Notes under the pieces: generated by a model
Seen by the model: only the letters and a program-made list of their open reading frames with translations
Told to the model about the DNA's origin: nothing
Database searches by the model: none
In this document: positions 42,774-44,157 of the stretch, in pieces
Position numbering within the stretch: the first letter of the stretch is position 1
Layout: every line of letters begins with the position of its first letter
Made by a program: the position numbers and the translations under genes
Source: Alistipes sp.
GTDB taxonomy: Bacteria > Bacteroidota > Bacteroidia > Bacteroidales > Rikenellaceae
Assembly (NCBI GenBank): GCA_017560425.1
Contig: JAFZEX010000020.1
Location: 1 to 64,000 of the forward strand
Length of the DNA stretch: 64,000 nucleotides
Reading direction: 5' to 3'

Positions 42774-42796
42774 AGTCGTTGAGCTAATAGATTAGA

Positions 42797-42804
42797 CAAA
42801 GATA
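42797..42804 (-). promoter_or_regulatory. -7 box of the glycerate kinase gene
   Basis: Minus-strand TATCTTTG, about 23 bp before the ATG. Confidence 0.65.
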
Positions 42805-42868
42805 CAAATTTATCGCCACAATATATTGTTCGTGGGTCAAAATCGGCAGTTTGTTGAAAAGTTACGAA

Positions 42869-42926
42869 GGTTGTGCAATTTTTTGAAATAGACAAACGTT
42901 ATTATGGCACGAGGATTGCACAATCC
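42869..42926 (+). promoter_or_regulatory. sigma-54-type promoter with overlapping inverted repeat
   Basis: TGGCACGAGGATTGCA at 42905-42920 matches the RpoN consensus (TGGCACG-N4-TTGCA) with GG and GC exactly 10 nt apart. An 11-bp inverted repeat, GGTTGTGCAAT at 42869-42879 and ATTGCACAATCC at 42915-42926, overlaps the -12 element. Predicted start near 42931. No conventional gene follows; the transcript would enter the palindromic cassettes at 42989-43265. Confidence 0.75.
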
Positions 42927-42933
42927 TTAAACA

Positions 42934-42953
42934 GCTACGTTGCAAAACACGTA
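42934..42953 (+). other. small hairpin at the predicted 5' end of the sigma-54 transcript
   Basis: CTACGT-N8-ACGTAG, directly downstream of the predicted start site. Confidence 0.5.
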
Positions 42954-42988
42954 GTTAGGTTTCTTCATTTATTTAAGTTTGGGTTAGT

Positions 42989-43089
42989 AGTTTTTATTTA
43001 CAGAACTTGCTTCTGTAAAGGGTATAGGCGGCAGTCGTGAGACTCCCGCCTATTTCTTTGTCTATTAGCAAGTTCTGTAAATAAAAACT
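42989..43089. repeat. 101-bp double-palindrome cassette
   Basis: A perfect 22-bp inverted repeat (42989-43010 and 43068-43089, arm ending CAGAACTTGC) encloses a second hairpin, ATAGGCGG at 43024-43031 against CCGCCTAT at 43046-43053, with an inner AGTC/GACT stem and a TTTCTTT tail that could terminate transcription. A truncated copy of 43005-43040 recurs at 43352-43386. It may be a miniature mobile element or a structured RNA. Confidence 0.75.
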
Positions 43090-43111
43090 ATGACTGCTCC
43101 CACGGTGTGGC

Positions 43112-43265
43112 AGAGTCGTCTGCGAGGGGTGTCTGATGTGTTTGCCGAGTTGCTGCGCAACTTGCGGTCTTGTGTTATCGGTCTTTTTGTGAGCAAGCTC
43201 CCAAAGCCCAATAACACAAGTCCACTCCTACGGAGTCGGCAACCACCCCCACCCCTCTTGCTCTG
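43112..43265. repeat. cloverleaf-like palindromic element
   Basis: GAGGGGTG at 43124-43131 pairs with CACCCCTC at 43250-43257. Inside, CTTGTGTTAT at 43169-43178 pairs with ATAACACAAG at 43211-43220, and small hairpins GTTGCTGCGCAAC and ACTCCTACGGAGT flank this stem. A 65-codon frame (43090-43287) crosses it but looks fortuitous. Together with the preceding cassette this fills the 616-bp gap between the two minus-strand genes. Confidence 0.6.
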
Positions 43266-43351
43266 CTCAAACCTTAAGGAGAGTTAGTAGTTTGGTTGTG
43301 CTGGTCCATAGGTTGGTGCGATTATCTATTCGTCATACAAGAGATTATAAT

Positions 43352-43386
43352 ACTTGTTTCTGTAAGAGGATAGGCGGCAATCGTGA
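43352..43386 (+). repeat. partial direct repeat of 43005-43040
   Basis: ACTTGTTTCTGTAAGAGGAT and the following GGCGGCAATCGTGA align with the left part of the palindromic cassette, with a handful of differences. It ends 3 bp before the stop codon of the adjacent membrane-protein gene. Confidence 0.75.
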
Positions 43387-43389
43387 TGA

Positions 43390-43698
43390 TTATTCACTAA
43401 TAGTATACTTTTTCTCTATCGTAGCGATATAATACTCAGCTGCCCTTGTCCTCTTAACTAAAGAATTCAAGAACTGCAAGTAAAGTATACCCAAAAGAGA
43501 TGATACAATAACATACACTCCAATTATCATGAAGATAGAGTCCATAACATCATCTGAAAAAGCCCCAACAGCAAACAGAATAGCGCCTATGATAATCCCT
43601 ATGATATTTAAAACCTTAAGGAACTTATATATCAACATTAATCCATTGGATGCCCCGCTATCCACATACAGCACATCTCTTGTAATTTGATCATTCAT
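43390..43698 (-). CDS. small two-helix membrane protein, unknown function
   Basis: 102 residues, not recognised. A polar N-terminus (MNDQITRDVLYVDSG) precedes two hydrophobic segments, about 30-48 (VLNIIGIIIGAILFAVGAF) and 55-78 (IFMIIGVYVIVSSLLGILYL), and a basic C-terminus. It is AT-rich with codon use unlike the neighbours (many ATA, TTA, AAA), a sign of recent transfer. It is preceded by a leader of about 265 nt with its own promoter and alternative hairpins, and followed immediately by a fragment of the palindromic cassette. It could be an immunity, toxin-like or small regulatory membrane protein; nothing in the sequence decides this. Confidence 0.65.
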   Translation of the reverse strand: MNDQITRDVLYVDSGASNGLMLIYKFLKVLNIIGIIIGAILFAVGAFSDDVMDSIFMIIGVYVIVSSLLGILYLQFLNSLVKRTRAAEYYIATIEKKYTISE

Positions 43699-43783
43699 AA
43701 CAGATTAAATTTAAGTTAAACAATTATTTGTGTTAAAAGTTTCGTTACCGTAGACAGCAACCGTTTAACATAAAAATAGAAAC

Positions 43784-43905
43784 GTGGGTGCACTTGATGT
43801 AACAAGGTACGACCAAGCACCCACAAAAACACAAGCACAACCCACGCCATACAACGTGAGCATTCAGCGTGCCTATTGGTGTTTTTGTTTCTAAAAATTG
43901 GTCGT
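43784..43905 (-). ncRNA. structured leader or small RNA with mutually exclusive hairpins
   Basis: On the minus transcript, hairpin 1 nests ACGACCAA/TTGGTCGT (43809-43816 with 43898-43905), CAAAAACAC/GTGTTTTTG (43824-43832 with 43879-43887) and CACGC/GCGTG (43843-43847 with 43867-43871). Hairpin 2 pairs GTGGGTG...CTTG (43784-43796) with CAAGCACCCAC (43814-43824) and is followed by GTTTCTATTTTT, like an intrinsic terminator. The two share 43814-43824, so only one can form: the geometry of an attenuator, or of a terminated sRNA. Upstream promoter at 43971-44001. Confidence 0.6.
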
Positions 43906-43944
43906 TTTTGTTACAAAACCAACAGCCCTAAATGCCATCTATAG

Positions 43945-43965
43945 CCATTGCGTATTCCGCAATGG
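43945..43965. promoter_or_regulatory. 21-bp inverted repeat at the leader's transcription start
   Basis: CCATTGCG-N5-CGCAATGG perfect repeat, overlapping the predicted +1 of the minus-strand promoter. It could be an operator or a 5' protective stem. Confidence 0.5.
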
Positions 43966-43970
43966 TACTA

Positions 43971-44001
43971 CAAATATACAAAAGTATTTTCGAAAAACAA
44001 A
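43971..44001 (-). promoter_or_regulatory. promoter of the structured leader and membrane-protein gene
   Basis: Minus-strand TTTG at 43998-44001, 19 bp, TATATTTG at 43971-43978. Confidence 0.7.
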
Positions 44002-44035
44002 AATCTACCGAAGAGTTTTTATTATGGCAAGGAGT

Positions 44036-44157
44036 GCAGAGATAGTGAATTTAGAGAGTTTAAGGAGAATAGGGACAACAAAGATAACAGAGACAACAAA
44101 GACAACAGAGACAACAGAGACAACAGAGACAACAAAGACAGCAGAGACAACAAATAA
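44036..44157. repeat. low-complexity and 9-bp tandem repeat tract
   Basis: A GAATTTAGAGAGTTTAAGG-type stretch (44045-44064) like that at 1651-1690, followed by about nine imperfect units of GACAACAGA/GACAACAAA up to 44157. The 629-bp gap 43699-44327 otherwise contains only the leader, promoters and AT-rich sequence. An open frame across it (43898-44299) encodes low-complexity Thr/Glu repeats and is not believed to be a gene. Confidence 0.8.

Follow-up and report, generated by a model that had tools for sequence, protein, structure and literature searches.

Positions 42931-43060 of the window, the whole 64,000-nt stretch of Alistipes sp. DNA analysed here, probably contain the gene of a sigma-54-dependent small RNA (sRNA) of about 130 nt that is distantly related to FopS and GibS and takes this form in the Rikenellaceae. 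Two things overlap in this one gene, the sRNA and a cassette-like unit that starts inside the sRNA gene. The promoter element, the architecture of the RNA, a near-invariant stretch and a terminator are present in the sequence itself. The draft genome that holds the window is 89.55% complete and 1.84 Mb in size, and the window lies on its contig 13. Across 42774-43389 the ORF list has 0 frames of 80 aa or more (shorter frames, for example one with an ATG at 43090, fall outside that list), and 42931-43300 folds far above shuffled sequences (z = -9.85). The features of the promoter and the RNA are:

42905..42920 (+): sigma-54 promoter, -24 TGGCACG and -12 TTGCA; exact match, conserved upstream of homologues
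42869-42879 / 42916-42926 (+): 11-bp inverted repeat around the promoter; found by eye, 10/11 bases
42931..43060 (+): predicted sRNA, ~130 nt; covariance models R1 and R2, +1 inferred 12 nt past the -12 C
42933..42956 (+): 5' hairpin 1; fold, two-sided changes in 6/6 pairs
42957..42990 (+): nearly invariant 34-nt stretch AGGTTTCTTCATTTATTTAAGTTTGGGTTAGTAG, predicted seed; alignments and BLAST set
42997..43019 (+): hairpin 2; fold, sequence varies among species
43024..43059 (+): intrinsic terminator, a stem with a C-C mismatch, GTGA loop and T run; fold and covariation

A conserved sigma-54 promoter

The first-pass annotation had placed a sigma-54 promoter, TGGCACG-N4-TTGCA, at 42905-42920 and called it the only RpoN promoter in the window. 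TGGCACGAGGATTGCA at this place (+) has 0 mismatches and is the sole exact match to TGGCACGNNNNTTGCA in the window, so that the second statement holds for exact matches and the first without reserve. By itself the string is weak evidence, since TGGCACGNNNNTTGCA with up to 2 mismatches has 7 matches in the window against 6.31 expected, and it is conservation that supplies the strength. A strict sigma-54 box lies within 110 nt in 116 of the 136 distinct upstream regions of homologous sites, compared with a mean of 1.45 and a maximum of 4 in dinucleotide shuffles, which agrees with the conservation in relatives that the annotation had called for; in 102/136 the box is found 40–62 nt before the core (shuffles 0.3, maximum 3). 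With a relaxed box the count is 127/136 (shuffles mean 5.95, maximum 9), and the remaining 9/136 regions lack it. Two of these nine sites (L107 and L129) have TAnnTTTG-type elements, which we take to be ordinary Bacteroidetes promoters.

Both rpoN and enhancer-binding proteins, which the annotation had proposed looking for, occur in the genome: rpoN is found at E 1.5e-51, and the sigma-54 activators comprise two full PF00158 proteins along with two weak partial matches. In our reading, activator 1 has a receiver-like N-terminus and activator 2 is an AAA-Fis protein adjoining an LptE-like gene. The marks of a sigma-54 regulon, namely a -24 GG and -12 GC with the correct spacing, rpoN, and activators in the genome, are thus found together, and one of the two activators would open the promoter on a signal. 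The 11-bp inverted repeat said to overlap the promoter is present, with 10/11 bases matching between its arms, GGTTGTGCAAT at 42869-42879 and ATTGCACAATC at 42916-42926; similar repeats occur in a few close relatives (L020, L033) and are missing from most of the others shown. A search upstream for activator sites gave weak enrichment of a GCACAATT-type sequence only.

Architecture and covariation of the predicted sRNA

Aligned homologues usually have the sigma-54 box, followed in many by a variable hairpin, then by AGGTTTCTTCATTTATTTAAGTTTGGGTTAGTAG almost unchanged, a second hairpin in most, and the terminator. The first 27 nt of AGGTTTCTTCATTTATTTAAGTTTGGGTTAGTAG are invariant by construction in the set that was selected by pattern; the TTAGTAG that follows them is conserved though it lies outside the selecting pattern, and the BLAST set was likewise not pattern-selected. 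In the fold the seed stretch at 42957-42990 forms no stem, yet its per-base unpaired probabilities range from 0.32 to 0.97. A hairpin had been annotated at 42934-42953; it exists, and is slightly longer than that.

Covariation was tested on 81 non-redundant sequences over the 18 pairs of hairpin 1 and the terminator. These pairs are formed in 90.3% of cells, compared with 70.6% in shuffles and 36–56% when the pairing is slid, and 296 cells are changed on both sides, where shuffles give 88.6. Pairs with two-sided changes number 17/18, which is not above shuffles (15.8; 152/500 as high), unlike the other four covariation measures, which all exceed them. The terminator helix has 12 pairs, 11 of them with two-sided changes, and 98.3% of cells paired, while hairpin 1 is paired in 73.6% of cells in the 81 sequences and, judged by eye, is missing from part of the more distant members. 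Fold, terminator and covariation bear out the earlier description of a structured non-coding RNA. The length then given to the transcript does not stand: transcription to 43265 and beyond is contradicted by the intrinsic terminator at 43024-43059, and the RNA should end before the double palindrome described below is completed.

Tandem sRNA paralogues, each with its own sigma-54-like box, are seen at L016, L025, L032 and L033, where the first copy has a different hairpin inserted in the seed region.

Distribution in the Rikenellaceae and beyond

In the genus, 166 of 180 genomes match a 541-base query around the promoter at E<=1e-3; among the matches listed, many cover only 42950-42994 at 95–98% identity and others extend farther at one end or at both. 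Scanning named genomes by pattern gave at least 119 stretches, titled Alistipes, Rikenellaceae, Tidjanibacter, Avirikenella or Bacteroidales. We built a covariance model, R1, from Rikenellaceae RNA; it scores the window sRNA at 116.3 bits, the window sequence being part of its training set. R1 has one strong match in the own genome, the next being at E 0.48, and it matches 16 of 295 genomes sampled from the order, among them three (own genome included) that belong to the own family. Over 296 genomes drawn from the phylum, R1 finds the own genome only at E<=1e-3. The exact sRNA core and junction are absent from the viral contigs searched, and a distant search of plasmids gave 0 matches. One locus of another Bacteroidales family (L169, G363:C89:163-853) carries at least four tandem matches to the sRNA model.

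Relation to FopS and GibS

No Rfam family reaches threshold at the locus, and MIR8643, the L20 leader and other sub-threshold Rfam matches were taken as chance. BTnc231 (RF04180) was also rejected: its sole own-genome match (E 0.85) is at the locus, but in relatives its matches lie on contigs without the sRNA, as judged from the six relatives with both places printed (G106, G130, G138, G139, G140, G143). FopS (RF04319), with a curated cut-off of 56 bits, gives no match at the locus in either the gathering or the E<=10 search, and in a whole-genome search with its model the best own-genome match lies elsewhere (C47; 28.3 bits, E 0.026).

Nonetheless, two of the R1 matches from the order (L176 and L177) are Rfam FopS sRNAs. 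A bridging model, R2, was made from 12 R1 matches in other families, none of them Rfam FopS and with the window sequence kept out of training. R2 scores the window sRNA at 55.6 bits at 42950-43060 (E 2.7e-7), a recognition that is partly circular, since R1 supplied the members of R2. For FopS there is no such circularity: all eight tested FopS loci are found at the same places, five at E<1e-3 and three at E 0.035–0.27. These eight come from the FopS model or Rfam, seven of them over the FopS cut-off and one (L194) below. Within 464 kb of the own genome R2 has one strong match, the best other match reaching 23.9 bits, and its scores on L191 (25.1 bits) and L192 (22.8) are at this background. 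R1 matches three of the eight at E<1e-3 (L176, L177, L193) and L189 partially (E 0.22), and gives nothing at the FopS place of L190, L191, L192 and L194.

We conclude that the window RNA is FopS-like and is not FopS, because the Rfam model misses the locus, the type of promoter and the number of copies are not those of FopS, and the search for the RRM partner found none. What it has in common with FopS and GibS is a short sRNA in which a conserved stretch with UUCAU and UUUAAG is followed by an intrinsic terminator; with FopS it also shares the R2 model, which some members fit weakly and in which the sequences are in register. Hairpin 1, 5' of the seed, and hairpin 2, 3' of it, are extra here. 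FopS genes have canonical sigma-ABfr promoters (PMC11697453), in contrast to the sigma-54 box at 116/136 sites here, and FopS copies in Bacteroides number 12–15 per genome (PMC11697453), compared with one strong own-genome copy here and tandem pairs in some relatives. The FopS partner RbpB is an RRM protein, and PF00076 has 0 matches in the own genome at its 89.55% completeness. A last difference is that the gene would double here as a cassette site.

Predicted seed pairing with translation start regions

FopS and GibS repress mRNAs by pairing at start codons, according to passages in PMC11697453 and PMC7366714. The UUCAU of the predicted seed is the reverse complement of AUGAA, and the seed would pair in trans with translation start regions and block ribosomes, as the two RNAs do in Bacteroides. 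Against 359 start regions in 464 kb of the own genome, the seed has a mean of -12.62 versus -11.82 (s.d. 0.40) and beats 59/60 shuffled seeds. When 15 positions were scanned over 346 ORFs, only the windows at -20 and 0 beat shuffles (z -0.9 and -1.8), the other 13 positions having z of +0.1 to +1.3. The start-codon enrichment is modest, with 1/60 and 1/20 shuffles as good. A pattern search of own-genome start regions gave 18 places, the sRNA itself counted, versus 11 for the reversed pattern.

The strongest complementarity lies in the leader of a gene that we take to be PUR-like. In the close relative G118 this leader has a 31-nt perfect complement of the seed that ends 7 nt before the ATG, and in the own genome 25/26 positions are complementary. 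As a conserved target the PUR gene was rejected: scored at 27 of 30 loci, pairing is strong only in the own genome and G118, two sister genomes, and the other 25 leaders range from -5.8 to -20.3 kcal/mol. One locus outside the 27 (L266) had -24.8 on the same kcal/mol scale in a separate scoring. At L243 (G118:C12) and L242 (G000:C49, just before 21123) the PUR-like leader contains a near-perfect reverse complement of the seed plus GTTAGTAG. This is perhaps a captured target site or an inverted insertion. Other own-genome candidates are a lipoprotein-like protein (L226, -26.9 kcal/mol) and a 314-aa protein (L237, -25.5); the membrane gene of the window ranks 23/359 (-18.5).

Pairing with a range of targets would hardly seem to call for a stretch this invariant, and the single target followed across relatives is not conserved. 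Both points favour a sigma-54-driven sRNA that acts mainly as a protein sponge, in which the invariant stretch would be bound by protein rather than serve as a seed, but the start-codon enrichment, the 31-nt complement in G118 and the relation to FopS and GibS, whose conserved stretch is a tested seed (as described in parts of PMC7366714 and PMC11697453), make that reading unlikely.

Palindromes and cassette-like units at the locus

The palindromes lie mostly outside the RNA and belong to cassette-like units bounded by GTTAGTAGTTT. The features of this part of the window are:

42983..42993 (+): cassette core GTTAGTAGTTT, within the sRNA gene, at the seed's 3' end; recurs where units meet in relatives
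42983..43293 (+): first, non-coding cassette-like unit; repeats, comparison of 35 distinct units
43268..43293 (+): unit junction, CAAACCTTAAGGAGAG followed by TTAGTAGTTT; junctions of this kind also in relatives
43344..43386 (+): partial second copy of hairpin 2 and terminator, opening the cargo unit; repeat D2
43390..43698 (-): presumed cargo, gene of a 102-aa membrane protein; ORF list, relative in G038
43765..44005 (-): structured promoter-leader; common to mostly different genes in relatives

The first unit consists, in order, of the core, the 3' half of the sRNA (hairpin 2 and terminator), an inverted core, a folded element of about 200 nt, and the core again. The double palindrome of the first-pass annotation is real, its 24-nt arms at 42988-43011 and 43067-43090 being 100% complementary, and the cloverleaf-like element noted beside it extends to about 43283. 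A dispersed REP-like repeat was considered and rejected, as the CAAACCTTAA-type junction occurs once in 464 kb of the own genome and GTTAGTAGTTT three times, two of these at the window locus. The 102-aa membrane protein belongs to no Pfam family, is 35.6% identical to a 108-aa protein adjoining the sRNA in G038, and looks like cassette cargo; a closing core to the right of its gene was not found.

Farther along, 43765-44005 (-) is a leader of about 200 nt that recurs, 72–95% identical, upstream of nine further genes of relatives, for the most part different ones, encoding membrane proteins, lipoproteins and others. It has 49 predicted pairs, 9 of them with two-sided changes (10 sequences), matches no Rfam family at threshold, and looks like a structured promoter-leader module with interchangeable ORFs. 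A nine-base tandem repeat (GACAACAAA/GACAACAGA) at 44047-44154 lies at the far edge of the cassette region.

Cassette-like arrays in relatives

A further copy of GTTAGTAGTTT occurs within 6 kb downstream at 29 of 121 sRNA sites, several stretches ending too early to tell. The first units collected are 35 distinct sequences, in 34 of which the inverted core could be placed; the folded element of these 34 has a median z of -5.2 (range -0.9 to -12.3, 20 shuffles each). In regions from 12 relatives, the later units mostly hold genes that point back at the sRNA. Genes flanked by a core on both sides encode a lipoprotein and Fic in G109, a radical SAM protein and a zeta-like one in G102, another zeta-like protein in G031, a protein weakly matching HTH in G108, and a recombinase in G082. 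Other copies of Fic, ParE (G086), lipoproteins and small membrane proteins, including that of the window, are found behind the last core, unclosed on the right. A Pfam scan covered ten array proteins, of which three have no family and two sub-cut-off matches only. The Fic protein of G109 has relatives 90.5–96.3% identical in five other genomes, and the zeta-like protein of G102 is 93–94% identical in two more, with a cut copy of 74% in a third; cargo identity above 90% between species suggests recent transfer. One of these genomes, G107 (L034, L072), has both the Fic and the zeta-like gene upstream of the sRNA, unlike the other arrays.

The G082 unit encodes a protein of 330 aa (a tyrosine recombinase) that has a phage-integrase SAM domain and resembles XerC/XerD weakly, and the unit closes with a junction as in the cargo units. 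No relative of this recombinase turned up in 464 kb of the own genome, and in the sets L043-L161 and L205-L216 its only match is on the G082 contig itself. The unit arrays, together with the comparison of syntenic loci given below, favour the earlier suggestion of a mobile cassette of some kind.

The recurrence of GTTAGTAGTTT downstream of those 29/121 sites and the tyrosine recombinase in one array could also mean that conservation of the stretch reflects an attI-like site of DNA recombination and not an RNA. However, it is kept at sites where no array is seen, matches in other families retain the seed-like stretch and the terminator, and a sigma-54 box, a terminator and covariation are what marks a transcript, so that we regard such a site without an RNA as quite improbable.

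Our preferred reading thus keeps both the sRNA and the site. From GTTAGTAGTTT on, the 3' half of the sRNA gene would double as the landing site of cassette-like units, and incoming units would bring their own terminator, leaving the sRNA intact. We tentatively propose, at somewhat less than even confidence, that the gene of a start-codon-blocking sigma-54 sRNA is the chromosomal landing pad of an uncharacterised cassette system, in which a tyrosine recombinase would exchange units at GTTAGTAGTTT, each restoring the terminator, and so build species-variable arrays of toxin-type, lipoprotein and membrane genes together with the ~200-nt folded element. Expression of the sRNA, its targets, and the movement of cassettes by exchange at a site inside its gene are what we infer from comparing sequences. 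Terminator exchange between close relatives is seen in selected pairs only and is suggestive at best; over all 137 pairs the downstream half is a median 0.84 alike and the upstream half 0.75.

At L170 (G314:C1), from another family, an Alistipes-type cassette core, hairpin 2 and terminator adjoin a gene resembling one near the G038 sRNA, which is either transfer between families or contamination.

The head-on membrane gene

The first-pass annotation had a long sigma-54 transcript cross the palindromes, reach 43265 or farther and perhaps act as antisense to the membrane gene. The promoter does face that gene and 42931-43300 folds strongly, but we consider such a transcript barely credible, given a conserved terminator that should end the RNA at about 43060, some 330 nt short of the gene, 92/121 sRNA sites without a second core within 6 kb (some stretches ending too early to tell), and a syntenic locus in G118 from which the gene is missing. 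There the flanks are 83–85% identical to those of the window and the middle differs, with an unrelated 238-aa protein in place of the membrane protein.

Discussion

The Vibrio Qrr RNAs are sigma-54-dependent sRNAs, and the sRNA described here resembles them in its activator-dependent promoter, its invariant stretch and, in some relatives, the tandem paralogues with their own sigma-54 box. Qrr belongs to a different phylum, and the likeness is one of organisation. The cassette-like units recall integron arrays and the islands at tRNA and tmRNA genes, with head-to-tail units, a common core, toxin-antitoxin-type cargo and an insertion that would leave the RNA gene intact; a hairpin-forming unit is also present. 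The core consensus of integron attC sites is GTTRRRY, from which the core here, GTTAGTAGTTT, read as GTTAGTA(GTTT), departs. Further differences are that the target here is an sRNA gene, that a ~200-nt folded filler unit occurs, and that the only recombinase seen sits inside one array (G082).

Open-access literature, as far as the search results in view extend, contains no report of a sigma-54-controlled sRNA in Bacteroidota. A query combining Alistipes, small RNA and sigma54 found no paper there, and matches on Bacteroidetes RpoN and sRNA look off-topic by title and the start of the abstract. The portions of main text at hand do not mention Alistipes or Rikenellaceae in the FopS paper (PMC11697453), or small RNA or sRNA in a 2025 survey of sigma-54 regulons.

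If our reading is true, a gated sRNA exists in Alistipes, a genus common in the gut, and is open to immediate testing, since its seed hardly varies among the sequences compared, its promoter is a textbook one and there are two candidate activators. The link to FopS would extend that group past the Bacteroidaceae of its original description, under a different switch and perhaps with no RbpB. Use of the gene by cassettes would place an sRNA gene among those RNA genes that serve as insertion sites, and would give a handle on the trade of small surface and toxin-type genes among these bacteria. If the gene is indeed a landing pad, regulation and gene acquisition would share one 130-bp gene.
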